Shown here: in pieces, positions 22,650 through 57,613 of the stretch
Layout: each line of letters starts with the position of its first letter
How positions within the stretch are numbered: the first letter of the stretch is position 1
Origin: Candidatus Gastranaerophilales bacterium
GTDB taxonomy: Bacteria > Cyanobacteriota > Vampirovibrionia > Gastranaerophilales > Gastranaerophilaceae
NCBI GenBank assembly: GCA_944325145.1
Contig: CALYDL010000006.1
Coordinates: forward strand, 1-64,000
DNA: 64,000 nt
Reading direction: 5' to 3'
The notes under the pieces: model-generated
Databases searched by the model: none
What the model was told of the DNA's origin: nothing
Seen by the model: the letters and a program-made list of their open reading frames with translations, nothing else
Position numbers and translations under genes: made by a program

Positions 22650-22678
22650 TTGCAAAATTTTAAAAAAACCTTTAGAAT
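22650..22678 (+). promoter_or_regulatory. sigma-70 type promoter of the arginine operon
   Basis: TTGCAA (22650-22655) and TAGAAT (22673-22678) are 17 bases apart, close to consensus. A start near 22685 would give a leader of about 23 bases before the leader-peptide ATG. Confidence 0.6.
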
Positions 22679-22707
22679 AAAACAATCAAATTTGAAAAAA
22701 GGAAAAA

Positions 22708-22761
22708 ATGAAAAACATTTCTTTAAAAATTGCTGAATTACGACGTCAAGGCCTTAGATAA
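22708..22761 (+). CDS. putative arginine leader peptide (17 residues)
   Basis: The short frame encodes MKNISLKIAELRRQGLR and stops at TAA 22759-22761. AAAGGA lies five bases upstream of the ATG. Three of its last six codons are Arg (CGA, CGT, AGA), placed at the base of a hairpin (22748-22767). It lies after a good promoter and before a terminator and the arg genes, so it looks like a sensor of charged tRNA-Arg: a ribosome stalled at CGA CGT would cover the 5' arm of the first hairpin. This is the usual logic of his, trp and leu leaders. Too short for routine gene callers. Translation is not proven. Confidence 0.7.
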   Translation: MKNISLKIAELRRQGLR

Positions 22762-22870
22762 GGTCTTTTGCCGTATTGCATTTTAAAAAGAATTTAGTTT
22801 TATTTTTCATTTTAAAAAGTATAGATACCTTAAAAAGACCTTATCTAAAAGGAATTTTAAGGTATTTTTT
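22748..22870 (+). promoter_or_regulatory. ribosome-stalling attenuator of the arg operon with alternative hairpins and terminator
   Basis: Three exclusive pairings are visible. Hairpin 1:2 is AAGGCCTT (22748-22755), loop AGAT, AAGGTCTT (22760-22767). The antiterminator 2:3 pairs TTAGATAAGGTCTTTT (22754-22769) perfectly with AAAAGACCTTATCTAA (22833-22848), 16 bp. The terminator pairs ATACCTTAAAA (22825-22835) with TTTTAAGGTAT (22855-22865), followed by TTTTTT. The antiterminator and terminator cannot both form without a pseudoknot. Stalling at the Arg codons would free segment 2, and completing the peptide would hide it. The mechanism is inferred from this geometry. Confidence 0.75.
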
Positions 22871-22902
22871 ATTAGAAAAAATTACAATAAAGGAGATATA
22901 AA

Positions 22903-23844
22903 TTGAAAACGGTTAAAAATTTAAAAGGGAAAGATTTTATTAATTTAGAAGATTTTTCATCTGATGAATTAAAAGGGTTAATTAAACTTGCAATTGAATT
23001 AAAGAAAAAAACCAAAAACGGCAAGAATTTAGATTTATTAAAAAATAAAAATCTTGTTATGTATTTTTCAAAACCTTCTTTAAGAACAAGATTAAGTTTT
23101 GAAATAGGAATGGCAAAATTAGGCGGCAAAAGCTATGTAATAAAACAAGATGAAATTATTTTGGGAAAAAGAGAATCTATTGAAGATACGGCAAGAGTAA
23201 TTTCAAAACATGCTGATGCTGTTACCATAAGAACCTTTGCGCATAGCGACGTTGAACAATTTGCAAAATTCTCATCAATTCCTGTTGTTAACGCCTTAAC
23301 AGACCTTTCTCACCCATGCCAGATTATGGCAGACCTTTTAACCGTTTATGAAACATTTAAAACTTTTAAAGGTTTAAAGCTGGCTTATATTGGCGATGGC
23401 AACAATGTTACAAACAGCCTGCTAACCGGCTGTGCTTCTTTTGGAATAGATATAACGGCAATTTGCCCAAACGGTTATGAACCAAACGGTGATGAAATTT
23501 TAAAGGCTAAAAAAATAGCTGAAAAAACAGGCTCTAAAATTGAAATCACATCTGACCCAGTGGTTGGTGTTCAAGGTGCAAACATTGTTTATACGGATGT
23601 TTGGGCTTCAATGGGGCAAGAAAATGAAGCTGAAGCAAGAAAAGAAATATTTAAAAATTATCAAATTAATAATGAATTAATGAAAAATACAGCTGGTAAT
23701 TCAATTGTTCTTCACTGCCTGCCTGCTCATAAAGGGCAAGAAATTACAGAAGAAACATTTGAGCTTCATGCAAATTCAATTTTTAATCAGGCAGAAAACA
23801 GAATGTATGCCCAAATGGCAATATTAGCGTCAATTATTAAATAA
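22903..23844 (+). CDS. argF: ornithine carbamoyltransferase
   Basis: Makes citrulline from ornithine and carbamoyl phosphate in the cytoplasm. The 313-residue protein has the carbamoyl-phosphate motif SKPSLRTRLSFE, DLSHPCQIMAD and the ornithine-loop HCLPAHKG, which separates it from aspartate carbamoyltransferase. The start is TTG 22903 behind AAAGGAGA. It is the first structural gene after the attenuator and is followed at 12 bases by argG, so the order of the first three genes follows the last three reactions of the pathway. Confident. Confidence 0.95.
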   Translation: MKTVKNLKGKDFINLEDFSSDELKGLIKLAIELKKKTKNGKNLDLLKNKNLVMYFSKPSLRTRLSFEIGMAKLGGKSYVIKQDEIILGKRESIEDTARVISKHADAVTIRTFAHSDVEQFAKFSSIPVVNALTDLSHPCQIMADLLTVYETFKTFKGLKLAYIGDGNNVTNSLLTGCASFGIDITAICPNGYEPNGDEILKAKKIAEKTGSKIEITSDPVVGVQGANIVYTDVWASMGQENEAEARKEIFKNYQINNELMKNTAGNSIVLHCLPAHKGQEITEETFELHANSIFNQAENRMYAQMAILASIIK

Positions 23845-23856
23845 GGAGAAATAAAA

Positions 23857-25077
23857 ATGAAAGAAAAAGTTATTTTAGCCTACTCCGGCGGTTTAGACAC
23901 AACAGTTATTATTCCTTGGTTAAAAGAAAACTATGATTTTGATGTAGTTGCAGTTTGTATTGATGTTGGCCAAGGAACAGAAACAGACGGACTAGAAGAA
24001 AAAGCGCTTAAAACAGGGGCTATAAAATATTACCTTTTAAATGTTGAAGATGAATTTGTGGTTGATTATATCTACCCTGCAATTAAAGCAAATGCAACTT
24101 ATGAAGGCAAATATCTTTTAGGAACATCTCTTGCAAGACCTTTAATTGCAAAAAAATTGGTTGAAATTGCAAAAAAAGAAGGTGCAACTGCAATTTGCCA
24201 CGGCGCAACAGGCAAAGGAAACGACCAAGTTAGGTTTGAACTTGGCATAAAAGCATTAGCGCCTGAACTTAAAATCATTGCCCCTTGGAGAATTTGGGAT
24301 ATTCAATCAAGAGAAGATGAAGTTGAATATCTTGAAAAAAGAGGAATTGAAGTTCCTATGAAAAAAGGCGACACCTATTCAAGAGATAAAAACCTTTGGC
24401 ATTTATCCCATGAAGGGTTAGAGCTTGAAGACCCTTCTTGTGAACCAAATTATGATAAATTGCTTCATTTATCGGTTACTCCTGAAAAAGCACCCGATGA
24501 AGCAACATACATTGAAATTGAATTTGAAAAAGGCGTTCCAACCAAATTAAACGGTGAAACTTATACGCCAAGTGAATTTGTTAAAAAATTAAACGTTATA
24601 GGCGGAAAAAACGGCATTGGCATTGTTGATATGGTTGAAAACAGAGTCGTGGGGATGAAATCAAGAGGAGTTTACGAAACCCCCGGAGGAACAATTTTAT
24701 ACTATGCGCATAAAGAACTTGAATATTTGTGCTTAGATAAACAAACCCAATCTTTTAAATCAATTGTTTCAAATAAATTCGCTGAACTTGCATATTCTGG
24801 CGAATGGTTCACACCTTTAATGGAAGCTTTAATGGCATTTGTTGATAAAACTCAAGAAACAGTTACAGGATGTGTTAAATTAAAACTCTACAAAGGAAAC
24901 ATAATTCCTGCAGGCGCAAAATCAAAATATTCGCTTTATAATGAATCTTTAGCAAGTTTTACAACCGGCGAATTATATAACCATAAAGACGCCGAAGGCT
25001 TTATAAACCTCTTTGGGCTTCCTTTGAAGGTTAGAGCATTAGTGAATAAAAAAAATAAAACAAAGGAGCTTGTTTAA
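23857..25077 (+). CDS. argG: argininosuccinate synthase
   Basis: Joins citrulline and aspartate using ATP. The 406-residue length is typical. The PP-loop ATP motif [12 protein letters not shown] is at the N-terminus, followed by [12 protein letters not shown] and the [20 protein letters not shown] block for substrate binding. AAGGAGA precedes the ATG. It overlaps argH by one base (TAATG), which supports coupled translation. Confidence 0.96.
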
Positions 25078-26477
25078 TGGCAAAAGAAGAAATCGCCCTT
25101 TTATGGGGTTCAAGGTTTTCAAAAGAATTAAATGAAGATGTTAATGATTTTAACTCATCCCTTCCTTTTGATAAAATTTTATATAAATATGACATTAAAG
25201 GAAGCATTGCGCACGCTACAATGCTTTGTCATCAAGGAATAATTTCAGAAAATGAAAAAGATGAAATTATAGCTGGGTTAAGTGAAATTTTAGCTGAAAT
25301 TGAAAGTGGTAAACTTCAATTCGATTATAACTTTGAAGACATTCATTCTTTTATAGAAGCTAATTTAGTGAAAAAAATTGGTGCTACAGGCAAAAAAGTT
25401 CACACGTCAAGAAGCAGAAATGACCAAGTTGCGCTTGATATTAGGCTTTATTTAAAAGATGAAATTAAAGAAATTCAAAAGTTAATCTTAAATTTAATTA
25501 AAACCTTAATGGATTTTTCAAATAATCACCTTGAAACAATAATGCCTGGGTATACTCACCTTCAAAGGGCACAAGCAGTTACTTTGGCGCATTATCTTGG
25601 TGCATATATTGAAATGTTTAAAAGGGATAAAGAAAGGCTTGATGATACCTATAAAAGGGTGAATGTTCTTCCCTTAGGGGCAGGGGCACTGGCCGGCAGC
25701 CCATATAACATTAAAAGAAATTTGGTGGCTGAATATTTAGGGTTTGATTCAATTTGTTTAAATTCAATGGATGCTGTTTCAGACAGAGATTTTATTATTG
25801 AATCATTATCTTGTTTAGCAATGGTTATGACCCATTTAAGCAGAATTTCAGAAGAAATTATAATGTGGTCAAGCTTTGAATTTAAGTTTGTTGAACTTGA
25901 TGATTCTTATTCAACGGGTTCAAGCATTATGCCTCAAAAGAAAAACCCCGATATTTTAGAACTTATTAGGGGCAAAACAGGCAGAGTCTACGGTTCTCTA
26001 ACAAGCATTTTAACCACAATGAAATCATTGCCTTTAGCATACAATAAAGATATGCAGGAAGACAAAGAACCATTGTTTGACGGCATTAAGACAGTTAAAA
26101 ATTGCCTTAAAATTCTTCCAAACGTAATAAAAACAATGAAAGTGAACAAAGAAAAAATGCTGCAAGCTGCAAAAGAAGGCTTTTTAAATGCAACCGATGT
26201 TGCAGATTACTTAACCAAAAAAGGGCTTCCATTTAGAGATTCCCACAATGTTGCAGGCAAGCTTGTTTCTTATTGCATTAATTCCAAAAAAACGCTTGAT
26301 GAACTTTCAATAGATGAATTTAAAAAAGAATCAGGCCTTTTTGAAGAAGATATTTATAGCGCAATTGATATTAAAAATTCTGTTATATCAAAAAAAGAAA
26401 TTGGCGGACCAAACCCTGAAACGGTTAAACATGTTTTGGAATTAAACAAAATTTGGCTATCTGATAATGAAATTTAG
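25077..26477 (+). CDS. argH: argininosuccinate lyase
   Basis: Splits argininosuccinate into arginine and fumarate. This 466-residue member of the fumarase/aspartase superfamily carries LLWGSRFS at the start, HTSRSRNDQVALD, GYTHLQRAQAVTLAHY with the catalytic His, and the signature GSSIMPQKKNPD. The start overlaps argG's stop and the downstream argC begins 12 bases later. No unusual residues were seen. Confidence 0.96.
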   Translation: MAKEEIALLWGSRFSKELNEDVNDFNSSLPFDKILYKYDIKGSIAHATMLCHQGIISENEKDEIIAGLSEILAEIESGKLQFDYNFEDIHSFIEANLVKKIGATGKKVHTSRSRNDQVALDIRLYLKDEIKEIQKLILNLIKTLMDFSNNHLETIMPGYTHLQRAQAVTLAHYLGAYIEMFKRDKERLDDTYKRVNVLPLGAGALAGSPYNIKRNLVAEYLGFDSICLNSMDAVSDRDFIIESLSCLAMVMTHLSRISEEIIMWSSFEFKFVELDDSYSTGSSIMPQKKNPDILELIRGKTGRVYGSLTSILTTMKSLPLAYNKDMQEDKEPLFDGIKTVKNCLKILPNVIKTMKVNKEKMLQAAKEGFLNATDVADYLTKKGLPFRDSHNVAGKLVSYCINSKKTLDELSIDEFKKESGLFEEDIYSAIDIKNSVISKKEIGGPNPETVKHVLELNKIWLSDNEI

Positions 26478-26489
26478 GAGAAATAAAAA

Positions 26490-27539
26490 TTGGAAAAAAT
26501 AAAAGCGGCAGTTGTAGGTTCAACAGGTTATGCAGGCGAAGAATTAGTTAGAATTTTGTCTAACCACAAAAATGTTGAATTAAAGTTTTTAACATCAAGG
26601 TCATATAAGGGGCAAAATTTTCAAGATGTTTATTCTAACTTTAATAAGGTTTTAGATATAAATTTAATTGAAGATGATATTGAAACCTTGTCAAATGAAG
26701 TTGATGTTATTTTTCTTGCACTGCCGCATGGGATAGCTTCAAGCAAAGTAACGAAAGAAACTTTAGGTAAAACAAAAATAATAGATTTAGGGGCAGATTT
26801 CAGATTAAAAAGTAAAACTGTTTATGAAAAATGGTATAACGTTGAACATTTGGGCGAAAACCTTTTAGATGAAGCGGTTTATGGGCTTCCTGAAATTTAC
26901 AGAGAAGAAATTAAAAAAACAAATTTAATTGCAAACCCGGGGTGCTACACAACTTGTTCCATTTTAAGCTTATACCCTTTATTTAAAAATAATTTAATTG
27001 AAACAAATTCTGTTATAATTGATGCAAAATCAGGCGTGACAGGAGCAGGCAGGAGCGTTTCATTAGGGGTTCATTTTTCTGAAACCAATGAAAACATAAA
27101 AGCTTATAAAATTGCATCCCACAGGCACACCCCTGAAATTGAACAAGAACTCACAAATGCAATTAAAAAAGACGTTGTAATTCAATTTACACCTCACCTG
27201 ATTCCAATGAACAGGGGCATTTTAACAACATCATATTTAAAACTAAAAGATGGCTTTACTTTTAATGATGTTAAAGAGGCTTATTTTGAACAATATAAAA
27301 ATGAAAAATTTGTAAGGCTTTTAAAAGATGGAATTTACCCCGAAACAAAATGGGTAAAAGGTTCAAATTATATTGATATCGGTTTGTTTTTCGACCGAAG
27401 AACAGGAAATGTAATTGTTCAAGGGGCAATAGATAATTTAATTAAAGGGGCATCAGGCCAAGCGGTTCAAAATATGAATTTAACCTTTGGTTTTGATGAA
27501 ATTGAAGGCATTAAAACGGCAGGAATATTTCCTGTTTAA
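26490..27539 (+). CDS. argC: N-acetyl-gamma-glutamyl-phosphate reductase
   Basis: NADPH-dependent reductase that turns N-acetylglutamyl phosphate into the semialdehyde. The 349-residue long-type ArgC has the NADP site VVGSTGYAGEELVRIL, the catalytic Cys in ANPGCYTTC, and HRHTPEIEQEL. Its start is TTG 26490 after GGAGAA. It is the first of the four early-pathway genes (argC-J-B-D), which follow the late genes in this operon. Confidence 0.95.
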   Translation: MEKIKAAVVGSTGYAGEELVRILSNHKNVELKFLTSRSYKGQNFQDVYSNFNKVLDINLIEDDIETLSNEVDVIFLALPHGIASSKVTKETLGKTKIIDLGADFRLKSKTVYEKWYNVEHLGENLLDEAVYGLPEIYREEIKKTNLIANPGCYTTCSILSLYPLFKNNLIETNSVIIDAKSGVTGAGRSVSLGVHFSETNENIKAYKIASHRHTPEIEQELTNAIKKDVVIQFTPHLIPMNRGILTTSYLKLKDGFTFNDVKEAYFEQYKNEKFVRLLKDGIYPETKWVKGSNYIDIGLFFDRRTGNVIVQGAIDNLIKGASGQAVQNMNLTFGFDEIEGIKTAGIFPV

Positions 27540-27557
27540 AAATTGAAAGGGAAAATA

Positions 27558-28802
27558 ATGAATACAATGATATCTGAAGAAATAAAAACAACAAAAGGAA
27601 CAATAGTATCACCAAAAGGATTTTTAGCTCAAGGAATTCATTCAGGGGTTAAAAAGGCAAAACTCGACCTTTCTCTTATTTATTCAAAAAAAACTGCGCT
27701 TTGTTCTGCTGTTTATACAACAAACATCGTTAAAGCGCCGCCACTTTTATGGTGTGAAAGCTTAACTAAAAATAATAATAAAATTCAAGCAATTGTTGTA
27801 AATAGCGGCAACGCTAATTCCTGCACAGGGGATAGGGGCTATAAGGATGCGGTTTTAATGGCGCAAACTGCAGCTGAATGCTTAAATATTGAAAAAGAAA
27901 GCGTTATGGTTACAAGCACAGGTGTTATCGGCGTATATTTGCCTATGGAAAATATTGTTTCAGGCATTAAAAAATTGGTGCCGACATTGGCCGATACAGA
28001 AGAAGCAGGCATTAATTGCGCAACGGGCATTTTAACAACAGATACGTTTTTAAAAAGCATAACCGTTGAATTTGAAATAAATGGAACACCTGTTAAAATT
28101 TCAGGCATTGCAAAGGGATCAGGCATGATTCACCCCAATATGGCAACAATGCTCAATTTTATTACAACAGATGCAAACATTGAAAAAGAACTTCTGGATA
28201 AAGCTTTTAAATCAAATATTTCAGACACCTTCAATATGATAACGGTTGATGGCGAAACAAGCACAAATGATATGGCAGTTATTTTAGCAAATGGTTGCGC
28301 TAATAACCCAATTATCAATAAAGAAGATGAAAATTATGAAAAATTTAAAAAAGCACTTCATATAGTTACAGAAGAACTTGCAAAAGATATAGTTAAAGAC
28401 GGCGAAGGCGCAAGCAAATTTTTAGAGTGCAAAATTAATGGTGCCAAAACAAAAGATGACGCCAAAATTTTAATTAAAGCAATTTTAAATTCCAACTTGG
28501 TAAAAACCGCATTTTTTGGGCAAGACGCTAACTGGGGCAGGGTAATTTCTGCTATGGGCGCATCAGGCGTTAAATTTAACCCAGATAAGGTTGATATTAA
28601 ATTTAAAAGCAAAACGGGCGAAATTGAACTTTATAAAAAAGGAAAGCCGCTTAATTTTGATGAAGAATTTGCAATTGATGTTTTAAAAGAAAGAGAAATT
28701 CAAATTTTAGTTGAAATGAAAGAAGGTGTAGCTGAAGCCACAGGCTGGGGCTGCGATTTGAGCTATGATTACGTTAAAATTAACGCAGAATACAGAAGCT
28801 AA
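27558..28802 (+). CDS. argJ: bifunctional glutamate N-acetyltransferase/ornithine acetyltransferase
   Basis: Moves the acetyl group from N-acetylornithine to glutamate, so acetate is recycled and no separate N-acetylglutamate deacetylase is needed. The self-cleavage site is visible as GMIHPNMATMLNFI, where the Thr of ATML becomes the nucleophile of the beta chain. AVVNSGNANSCTG and DGEGASKF fit the family. I start at ATG 27558 because AAAGGGAAA precedes it; a TTG at 27543 is in frame but poorly placed. With argJ present, the operon encodes the cyclic arginine pathway. Confidence 0.94.
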   Translation: MNTMISEEIKTTKGTIVSPKGFLAQGIHSGVKKAKLDLSLIYSKKTALCSAVYTTNIVKAPPLLWCESLTKNNNKIQAIVVNSGNANSCTGDRGYKDAVLMAQTAAECLNIEKESVMVTSTGVIGVYLPMENIVSGIKKLVPTLADTEEAGINCATGILTTDTFLKSITVEFEINGTPVKISGIAKGSGMIHPNMATMLNFITTDANIEKELLDKAFKSNISDTFNMITVDGETSTNDMAVILANGCANNPIINKEDENYEKFKKALHIVTEELAKDIVKDGEGASKFLECKINGAKTKDDAKILIKAILNSNLVKTAFFGQDANWGRVISAMGASGVKFNPDKVDIKFKSKTGEIELYKKGKPLNFDEEFAIDVLKEREIQILVEMKEGVAEATGWGCDLSYDYVKINAEYRS

Positions 28803-28816
28803 GGAGAAAGTTATAA

Positions 28817-29677
28817 ATGCAAAAATATATAGAAAAAGCAAGTGTTTTAATCGAGGCTATGCCTTATTTAAACGAATTTCACGGTAAAACCGTTGTTATA
28901 AAATTTGGCGGTGCCGCTATGGTTGATCCCCAAATTAAAAAATCTGTTATAAGGGATATTGCCTTTATGAAAATGGTTGGAATTAACCCTGTAATTGTCC
29001 ATGGCGGAGGGCCTGAAATTAATGAAGCATTGAAGCTTCAAAAAATTGAGCCCAAATTTGTAAACGGTTTAAGGGTAACAGACCCAAACACCATGAAAAC
29101 AGTTGAAACAGTTTTATCAGGCAAAATTAATAAAGCCTTGGTTTCAGAATTTCAAAAAAACAATGTTTCTGCCGTTGGTATTTCAGGCAAAGACGGGCTT
29201 TTAATTGAAGCAAAGAAAAAAGAAGGTGAAGTTGACCTTGGGCTTGTTGGCGACATTACAAACATCAACACAAAAATTATTGAAAGCTTACTTGCTTCAG
29301 ATTTTGTTCCTGTTATTTCACCTGTCGGTTCTGATAAAGAAGGAAATACATTTAATATAAATGCAGACATTGCAGCATCAGAGATTACAATTAAATTAAA
29401 TGCCGCAAAGCTTATTTTCTTAACGGATTCAAACGGCGTTTTATTTAAAGAAGATGATGAAAATTCAGTTATATCGGAATTAATTCCTGATGAAATTAAG
29501 CTTTTAATTGAAAACGGAACAATTAAAGGCGGCATGATTCCAAAAGTTAATTATGCAACAAAAGCGGTTAAAAATGGCGTTAATTCCGTTCACATCATAA
29601 ACGGTAAAATTTTACACTCACTTCTTTTGGAAATTTTTACAAAAGATGGTATCGGCACAATTATAGAGGAATTCTAA
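28817..29677 (+). CDS. argB: acetylglutamate kinase
   Basis: Phosphorylates N-acetylglutamate with ATP, normally the feedback-controlled step. The 286-residue amino-acid-kinase fold shows VVIKFGGAAMVD, IVHGGGPEIN, and later NINADIAASEI and TIKGGMIPKV. An N-terminal ~20-residue extension before the core (YIEKASVLIEAMPYL) is like the arginine-sensitive type, which supports allosteric control by arginine; that is inference. The stop overlaps the argD start by one base. Confidence 0.95.
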   Translation: MQKYIEKASVLIEAMPYLNEFHGKTVVIKFGGAAMVDPQIKKSVIRDIAFMKMVGINPVIVHGGGPEINEALKLQKIEPKFVNGLRVTDPNTMKTVETVLSGKINKALVSEFQKNNVSAVGISGKDGLLIEAKKKEGEVDLGLVGDITNINTKIIESLLASDFVPVISPVGSDKEGNTFNINADIAASEITIKLNAAKLIFLTDSNGVLFKEDDENSVISELIPDEIKLLIENGTIKGGMIPKVNYATKAVKNGVNSVHIINGKILHSLLLEIFTKDGIGTIIEEF

Positions 29678-30867
29678 TGAATAATTTTGAAGAATTTGAT
29701 AAATATGTAATGACAACATATAAAAGGTTTCCTGTTTCTTTTGAATATGGAGATGGAATTTATTTATACGATGAAAACAACAAAAAATATCTTGATTTTA
29801 CTGCAGGAATTGCAGTAAATGCACTTGGTTACGGCAACAAAAATTATATAAATGCACTTTGCAATCAGATTAATAAAATTAATCATTCATCTAATTTATA
29901 CTATATAAAACCGCAAGGGGAACTTGCAAAATTATTAAGCGAAGTTTCGGGCTTAGACAAAGCATTTTTCTGCAATTCAGGAGCCGAAGCAAACGAAGCA
30001 GCCTTAAAACTTGCAAGAAAATATGCATATATAAATAATAAAGGCAATAAAATTATTGCAATGAAAAATTCTTTCCATGGCAGAACAATTGGTTCTCTAA
30101 CTTTAACAGGGCAAGAAAAATATCAAAAAGCGTTCAAACCCTTAATGGGAAATGTTGAATACGGGGAATTTAACAACCTTGAAAGTATTGAAGAATTAAT
30201 GAATAACGATGTTTGTGCCGTTATTGCAGAATGCATTCAAGGTGAAGGCGGCATAATTCCAATGGAAAAAGAATTTTACCTTGGTTTAAGAAAACTTTGC
30301 GATAAACATAATGCACTTTTAATTATAGATGAAGTTCAAACAGGAATTGCAAGAAGCGGTGAATTTTTTGCTTTTCAAAATTATGCAAAAAATTACGAAG
30401 AAGCCCCCGATATTATTTGCCTTGCAAAAGGTTTAGGAAATGGTGTTCCAATCGGCGCAATTGCAGCTAAAGAAAAAGCGGCAAATGCTTTTGAACCATC
30501 AGACCACGCTTCAACCTTTGGCGGCAATTTTATTTCAACGGTAGCCGGAATTGCAACAATAAAAGAAATTTTAAACCTTGATTTGGTTCAAAATGCAAAA
30601 AATGTGGGCGCTTATTTGTATCAAAAATTAAGCGAATTAAAGCCCTTAATTAAAGATGTTAGGGGAATGGGGCTTATGATAGGTGCTGAAATTGAAGGAA
30701 ATACAAGTGAAATTATTCAAAAATGCCTTGATAACGGGCTTTTAATTATAGGGGCAGGCAAAAACACAATAAGGTTTGTTCCGCCTTTAATTATTACAAA
30801 AGAAGATGTTGACCTTGCAATTGAAATATTTAAAAAAGCTGTAATAAAACAAAAAGCGGCCGTATAA
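29677..30867 (+). CDS. argD: acetylornithine aminotransferase
   Basis: A PLP-dependent class III aminotransferase of 396 residues that makes N-acetylornithine. Motifs are GIAVNALGYGN, FCNSGAEANEAALKLAR, SFHGRTIGSL, IIDEVQTGIARSG, and CLAKGLGNGVPIGA with the PLP Lys. It is the last gene of the operon. Its stop codon falls inside the loop of a strong terminator. It can also work in lysine or proline-linked pathways in other species, but the context fixes it here as ArgD. Confidence 0.94.
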   Translation: MNNFEEFDKYVMTTYKRFPVSFEYGDGIYLYDENNKKYLDFTAGIAVNALGYGNKNYINALCNQINKINHSSNLYYIKPQGELAKLLSEVSGLDKAFFCNSGAEANEAALKLARKYAYINNKGNKIIAMKNSFHGRTIGSLTLTGQEKYQKAFKPLMGNVEYGEFNNLESIEELMNNDVCAVIAECIQGEGGIIPMEKEFYLGLRKLCDKHNALLIIDEVQTGIARSGEFFAFQNYAKNYEEAPDIICLAKGLGNGVPIGAIAAKEKAANAFEPSDHASTFGGNFISTVAGIATIKEILNLDLVQNAKNVGAYLYQKLSELKPLIKDVRGMGLMIGAEIEGNTSEIIQKCLDNGLLIIGAGKNTIRFVPPLIITKEDVDLAIEIFKKAVIKQKAAV

Positions 30868-31037: not shown

Positions 31038-31057
31038 AATAAAAATTGGTTTAATTT

Positions 31058-31130
31058 TGGAGCGTAGGGGATTCGAACCCCTGACCCCGACACTGCCAGT
31101 GTCGTGCGCTACCAACTGCGCCAACGCCCC
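31058..31130 (-). tRNA. tRNA-Ala (anticodon GGC)
   Basis: On the minus strand the cloverleaf runs from 31130 to 31058: acceptor GGGGCGT with ACGCTCC, including the G3-U70 pair that marks alanine tRNAs; D-arm GGCGCAGTTGGTAGCGC; anticodon loop CTGGCAG with anticodon GGC; T-arm GGGTTCGAATCCC. No CCA is encoded. TTGCAA (31166-31171) and TATTAT (complement of 31144-31149), 16 bases apart on the minus strand, could be its promoter. Confidence 0.95.
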
Positions 31131-31197
31131 AAAAGTAATATTTATAATATCATAAAATTGCACCCTTGCAAGGTTTGCGGCTCATTTTATTTATAAA

Positions 31198-32992: not shown

Positions 32993-33345
32993 GCATTAAA
33001 AAATAGCAAGGGATGCCAGACTCTTAGGCGAAAAGCTTGCTTTGAGCCTTAGAGGTCGGTATATCGAGAAACGTATGAAAATCGGGAGTGAAACGACCTG
33101 ATTTTCAAGTTTTGAGATTGAGATGTAATCTCGACCTTTGTTGAGAATATATTTTTAAGCATTAAAAAATAGCAAGGGATGCCAGACTCTTAGGCGAAAA
33201 GCTTGCTTTGAGCCTTAGAGGTCGGTATATCGAGAAACGTATGAAAATCGGGAGTGAAACGACCTGATTTTCAAGTTTTGAGATTGAGATGTAATCTCGA
33301 CCTTTGTTGAGAATATATTTTTAAGCATTAAAAAATAGCAAGGGA
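32993..33345. repeat. 166-bp tandem direct repeat on the 3' side of tRNA-Met
   Basis: Two identical 166-bp units begin at 32993 and 33159, with a third, 21-base start at 33325 that runs into the tRNA. Each unit contains the complement of the tRNA's 3' end (AGCAAGGGA) at the same offset. On the tRNA strand each unit has a T-stem-like GGTCGAGA, then hairpin-forming inserts, then CCCTTGCT. Inverted repeats inside the unit include CTCTTAGGC/GCCTTAGAG and AAAATC/GATTTT. No coding frame was seen. Confidence 0.9.
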
Positions 33346-33409
33346 GAGATTCGAACTCTCGACCTCACGGGTATGAGCCGTGCGCTCTCACCAACTGAGC
33401 TACCTTGCC
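33336..33409 (-). tRNA. tRNA-Met (anticodon CAT)
   Basis: The minus-strand cloverleaf runs from 33409 to 33336: acceptor GGCAAGG with CCTTGCT, D-arm GCTCAGTTGGTGAGAGC, anticodon stem CACGG/CCGTG with loop CTCATAC, T-arm GAGAGTTCGAATCTCTC. The paired first base (G1-U72) is not the unpaired initiator form, so this is an elongator Met tRNA, or tRNA-Ile2 if C34 is modified to lysidine. No CCA is encoded. Both ends run into tandem repeats made of its own sequence. Confidence 0.92.
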
Positions 33410-33640
33410 ATTTAAAGTTTTATATTATTCAATTGTCAATTGGCTCAGTTGGCTCAGCGCACGGGGCGCTCTCACGATACTTTGTTTTGTTCGCAAGCTC
33501 ACAAAAGGAGCTACCTTGCCATTTAAAGTTTTATATTATTCAATTGTCAATTGGCTCAGTTGGCTCAGCGCACGGGGCGCTCTCACGATACTTTGTTTTG
33601 TTCGCAAGCTCACAAAAGGAGCTACCTTGCCATTTAAAAC
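33397..33640. repeat. 111-bp tandem direct repeat on the 5' side of tRNA-Met
   Basis: Units begin at 33397, 33508 and 33619 (the last is partial), with an exact 111-bp period. Each begins with GAGCTACCTTGCC, the complement of the tRNA 5' end. On the tRNA strand the copies read GGCAAGGTAGCTC, then a 32-base insert where the tRNA has AGTTGGT, then GTGAGAGCGC: a D-loop replacement. The insert can form a hairpin through TTTTGT/ACAAAA. An inverted D-arm copy (GGCTCAGTTGG, GCGCACGG) follows on the plus strand. Confidence 0.9.
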
Positions 33641-57536: not shown

Positions 57537-57613
57537 CGGGACGTAGCGCAGCTTGGTAGCGCACCACCTTGGGGTGGTGGGGGTCGCAGGTTCAAATCCT
57601 GTCGTTCCGACCA
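57537..57613 (+). tRNA. tRNA-Pro (anticodon GGG)
   Basis: Cloverleaf from 57537: acceptor CGGGACG with CGTTCCG, D-arm GCGCAGCTTGGTAGCGC, anticodon stem CCACC/GGTGG with loop TTGGGGT (anticodon GGG), T-arm GCAGGTTCAAATCCTGT, discriminator A and encoded CCA at 57611-57613. It is the only tRNA of the three here that encodes CCA. It is flanked by altered copies of its own parts on both sides. Confidence 0.95.

Follow-up and report, generated by a model that had tools for sequence, protein, structure and literature searches.

The region upstream of argF in a 64,000-nucleotide stretch of DNA from a Candidatus Gastranaerophilales bacterium (assembly GCA_944325145.1, contig CALYDL010000006.1; this whole stretch is referred to here as the window) very probably specifies a ribosome-mediated transcription attenuator, which would couple the supply of arginyl-tRNA to expression of the operon argFGHCJBD; from sequence and modelling, we place the probability of this reading at roughly nine in ten. 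By its parts, the locus resembles a classical trp/his-type attenuator, and the comparative evidence presents it as a well-supported candidate. The operon downstream of the leader makes the very amino acid to be sensed, arginine. The Gastranaerophilales are an order within the Melainabacteria, and the closest named homolog of this argF, at 96% identity, belongs to a Gastranaerophilales metagenome-assembled genome.

The Leader and the Operon

A promoter, a Shine-Dalgarno sequence, a 17-codon open reading frame (ORF), a hairpin and a terminator follow one another, in this order and all on the forward strand, in the space that separates argF from a divergent pflB-like gene. The promoter is of the sigma-70 type (22650-22678), with TTGCAA (22650-22655) and TAGAAT (22673-22678) separated by 17 nucleotides. 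The Shine-Dalgarno sequence AGGA (22700-22703) precedes the ORF for the leader peptide, MKNISLKIAELRRQGLR, whose 17 codons (22708-22758) are followed by a TAA stop (22759-22761), the whole spanning 22708-22761, and in which the tandem Arg codons CGA CGT at 22741-22746 would be the sensing codons. These codons are inside the 5' arm of the predicted 1:2 (pause or protector) hairpin, at approximately 22739-22775. The antiterminator arm (region 2, 22754-22769) is perfectly complementary over 16 bp to its partner (region 3, 22833-22848), and the latter overlaps the 5' arm and the loop of the intrinsic terminator (3:4, 22823-22870; stem 22823-22835/22855-22867), which ends in six T, the U tract, at 22865-22870. 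The first gene of the operon is argF, for ornithine carbamoyltransferase (22903-23844), followed by argG, argH, argC, argJ, argB and argD (23857-30867), an order on which the ORFs and the tblastn searches against relatives agree. A first-pass annotation made from the letters alone had already called the promoter, the Arg-codon frame, the hairpin at its Arg codons, the 16-bp pairing, the terminator with its six T and the seven arg genes, and each of these was recovered.

The 16-bp repeat, which joins the end of the leader ORF to the 5' arm of the terminator, is the sole perfect inverted repeat of at least 16 bp with a gap of at most 110 nucleotides in the entire window, compared to a chance expectation of 0.05 (40 simulated windows). 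The leader as a whole outfolds 200 of 200 shuffled sequences (z = -3.96), and its terminator also folds better than shuffles (z = -3.3), while being missed by a simple terminator scan whose rule permits loops of 3-8 nucleotides only.

Conservation in Related Genomes

Loci with argF of this type are not the rule in the family, occurring in 23 of 383 genomes. Most of the 383 genomes seem to be without this argF, two members of the window's own genus included. Five genera, belonging to two families, have leaders upstream of argF, four in the same family (g1, g9, g19 and g22) and one in another (g33), and the peptides of the relatives close with [LIA]RR or with a variant of it (MKNTSLTTAQIRRQDRNF, MKNLTLNKTQYTELRQSRFVFISAEFGV, MNNKIIFTTELRRRNLF, MRKIVKKIQLRRSCSNQVLNRVI, MKTVTSTTQLRRSIL, MKTITFTIQARRSIPYIECGIVL and MKTVFDTTEIRRGIH). 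The Arg codons are in tandem in the leaders before argF, with R-Q-S-R instead in L006. An alignment of related genomes had been set beforehand as a test of the attenuation reading; in this alignment the layout is constant, and a leader with Arg codons, a terminator and a competing helix are all retained despite mostly changed nucleotides. A TTGCA -35 element with a correctly spaced -10 is present in 10/10 aligned leaders of the argF type, and this is the one conserved promoter seen. In L006 (1257-1371; L032 has the same leader), the leader ATG is only 6-7 nucleotides past the -10 box, so the peptide is probably translated there from a leaderless start.

Genus g52 has an operon with the rearranged order argC-J-B-D-G-H-F, and here an Arg-rich leader, RRRLIR (e.g., MILNKQERTLRRRLIRLESY), along with a terminator, precedes argC and not argF. 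The leader thus goes with whichever gene is first in the operon. No leader was seen upstream of argF in families f2-f4, where no arg genes adjoin argF in the cases checked; the sample for family f7 is three genomes, one of them with argF. The regions upstream of argF at 54 loci, almost entirely of other phyla, produced three weak and unconvincing matches.

A sequence-only model was built from nine leaders, blind to the downstream genes, and scanned over the 383 genomes. It returned ten matches above 50 bits, all of them arg leaders, and one at 30 bits, the remainder scoring at most 21.5 bits; the best 11 matches are all leaders of arg operons, and the following one is 9 bits weaker. Eight of the ten matches above 50 bits are the training sequences, found by construction, while those in genomes G004 and G007, which are close relatives, along with the 30-bit match, lie outside training. 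In G007 the contig stops right after the leader, its other neighbour being pflB, as in the window. The 30-bit match, MKKSIFTIQFRRSIR, is located about 200 bases upstream of argG-argH in genome G090 (L200, G090:C153:11011-11070), which has no argF match at E <= 1e-60, and its sequence is that of an apparently reduced or decaying attenuator.

The Proposed Switch

Transcription would begin near 22685, and the 17 codons of the leader would be read by a ribosome. A shortage of charged tRNAArg would make the ribosome stall on CGA CGT, with a footprint that leaves most of region 2 free to pair with region 3; formation of this antiterminator would block the terminator, and the operon would be transcribed. 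With ample arginine, the ribosome would reach the stop codon, which is inside region 2, and mask this region, so that the terminator would form and transcription would end near 22870. After release of the ribosome, the 1:2 hairpin may also hold region 2. The actual stalling, termination in vivo, the response to arginine and tRNAArg(ACG) as the sensed species are what we infer, next to the parts, conservation, register and energetics computed here.

An intrinsic terminator is present between the leader ORF and the first gene in 17 leaders (ten of the argF type and seven of g52), being weak in L012 and L123. In the ten leaders of the argF type, the 2:3 helix outdoes that of dinucleotide shuffles in every case (p 0.002-0.02), and the antiterminator helix and the terminator are mutually exclusive; this exclusion is weaker in g52. 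Simulations of the ribosome on the same 17 leaders, with an assumed footprint of 13 nucleotides, place it in a consistent register throughout: at the Arg codons it frees region 2 and at the stop it masks region 2 (17/17). The probability of antiterminator pairing in the nascent RNA is 0.53-1.00 when the ribosome sits on the first Arg codon versus 0.00-0.48 when it is at the stop, again in all 17 leaders, and in the window the probability of the terminator rises from 0.00 for a ribosome on the Arg codons to 0.93 for one at the stop. The amplitude of the switch is significant against shuffled spacers (p <= 0.05) in 9 of 13 leaders.

Compensatory changes in the stems had been named in advance as a further expectation, and they are evident in the terminators, with T-A to C-G between the window and G004, and A-T to G-C between L008 and L112. 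In the 2:3 helix, changes on both sides are found in 3 of 11 pairs (L012, L117 and L123), but this count is not significant by shuffling (79/500; three sequences), which is the first of several results that speak against attenuation as proposed. The short 2:3 helix of g52 (8 bp with one mismatch) does not reach significance by itself (p 0.09-0.6) and is too invariant for covariation. For the G090 leader before argG-argH, no strong terminator was found. For 12 of 17 leaders (five of the argF type and seven of seven in g52), the complete terminator is favoured at equilibrium under starvation as well, and switching in these would therefore have to be kinetic, with the antiterminator forming first. 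Finally, the antiterminator probability for the window in the absence of a ribosome is 0.73, so region 2 is not always blocked, and the off state thus depends on translation reaching the stop codon.

Proposed Sensing Codons and tRNA

Among the 470 Arg codons in 40 long ORFs of the window, AGA makes up 62%, AGG 25%, CGN 12.8% and CGA 1.3%, with CGA, CGT and CGC together at 11.7%; in the arg operon itself, CGN is used in 1 of 53 Arg codons. The tandem sensing codons are CGA, CGT or CGC in all leaders, and CGN Arg codons are common to all of them. For each of the anticodons ACG, TCT, CCT and CCG, the genome has a single tRNAArg; a further tRNA gene, incomplete at a contig edge, is untyped. An ACG anticodon with inosine reads CGU, CGC and CGA, and the sensor is therefore probably a single species, tRNAArg(ACG). 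Selective tRNA charging theory holds that a little-used isoacceptor remains charged unless it is scarce (PMC1183508); on this view, tRNAArg(ACG) would be scarce here, or else the decoding of CGA-CGY slow. The preference of the leader for rare CGA/CGY makes it a direct test case for this theory. A search of the own genome for the codon pattern [QE]-x-R-R produced fewer matches (95) than the reversed control (154), and is thus uninformative. Three tRNA genes are located elsewhere in the window, Ala(GGC) at 31057-31131, Met at 33335-33410 and Pro(GGG) at 57537-57613.

Alternative Explanations

As to the possibility of a plain intrinsic terminator or a small RNA gene preceding argF, with a short ORF present by chance and the argF promoter elsewhere, terminators are indeed common in intergenic regions, but the Arg codons, the ORF, the competing helix and the terminator are conserved jointly in five genera, the set moves with the first arg gene in the rearranged operon, and a single conserved promoter is seen; we consider this explanation improbable.

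Slightly less probable still is control of arginine synthesis by a protein or an uncharged-tRNA sensor, an ArgR-type repressor or a T-box, with the leader secondary. ArgR control is usual for arg operons. T-boxes operate in some bacteria (PMC1262725). Some relatives carry a palindrome (GTGTA-N5-TACAC, or TGTAAATTRTACA) that overlaps their arg promoter or lies beside it, around the -10 in L012, L117 and L123, and upstream of the -35 in L126-L131. This palindrome could serve as an operator for a repressor, but the window does not have it. The ArgR C domain (PF02863) was found in 0 of 58 genomes, with the control search positive in 8 of 14 and the window's assembly 94% complete, a result that answers the earlier suggestion to check the genome for an ArgR homolog; membership in an ArgR regulon was accordingly rejected, for the window genome as well as for the relatives. 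Searches at gathering and relaxed thresholds returned only chance matches, with no T-box or other Rfam cis-regulatory or leader family at the site, and a T-box riboswitch was likewise rejected, with no Rfam match for a T-box or specifier structure. Within the genus, leuA, hisG and trpE have no comparable cognate-codon leader, so that, as far as these genes go, the clade does not make general use of attenuation.

The least probable is a leader peptide that senses ribosome-stalling antibiotics, and not arginine, through Arg motifs of the R-L-R type, such as the RRRLIR of the g52 leaders, as what is common to all leaders is CGN Arg codons and not RLR, and arginine biosynthesis genes are downstream in every case.

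Comparison with Known Systems

The first-pass annotation had called attenuation of the trp/his/leu type unusual for arginine; the comparative tests across relatives favour the attenuation, and the qualifier is fair, as no ribosome attenuator of arginine biosynthesis is found in the searchable literature, in which few subscription papers are in reach, so that an earlier report is possible. To this extent, the attenuator is apparently new both for arginine biosynthesis and for the Gastranaerophilales group. Attenuation in cyanobacteria lacks reliable data (PMC4833913), leader peptides have been extended to Firmicutes (PMC2965389), and no conserved RNA regulatory structure was found for arginine in Actinobacteria (PMC1262725). 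We would give even odds to the broader proposal that this is the first ribosome-mediated attenuator of arginine biosynthesis and the first amino-acid attenuator in Melainabacteria/Cyanobacteriota, one that replaces ArgR and reads, via rare CGA/CGY, the charging of tRNAArg(ACG) and not the total arginine pool.

One related system is the Pseudomonas carA leader, also preceding a gene of arginine (and pyrimidine) synthesis, where P. syringae has a terminator and P. aeruginosa a leader peptide; its attenuation is attributed to pyrimidine control, ArgR sites are present, and the source describes no set of Arg codons and antiterminator (cited in PMC4997734). Another is presented by the T-boxes that regulate arginine genes in other species at the RNA level by tRNAArg charging, as proposed for the window, but that bind uncharged tRNA directly, without a leader peptide (cited in PMC1262725); the window has no T-box match. 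The nearest leader with Arg codons is orf34-speF of Salmonella, in which two consecutive Arg codons sense arginine by ribosome pausing and refold the mRNA, as is proposed here, but which controls a different gene, for ornithine decarboxylase, in a different phylum, via Rho, RNase G and masking of the ribosome-binding site, with no pair of intrinsic terminator and antiterminator described (PMC6386406). The trp/his/leu-type attenuators (trpL, hisL, leuL) share with the window the cognate-codon leader, the 1:2, 2:3 and 3:4 helices, the intrinsic terminator and the operon for the same amino acid, the differences being the amino acid (arginine), the melainabacterial host and the lack of a match to an Rfam leader family. 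Bacterial control of arginine is known mainly as repression by ArgR, joined in some groups by T-boxes. An arginine attenuator conserved in a lineage with no detectable ArgR would mean that the trp-type solution serves arginine too, and would add a phylum to its range.
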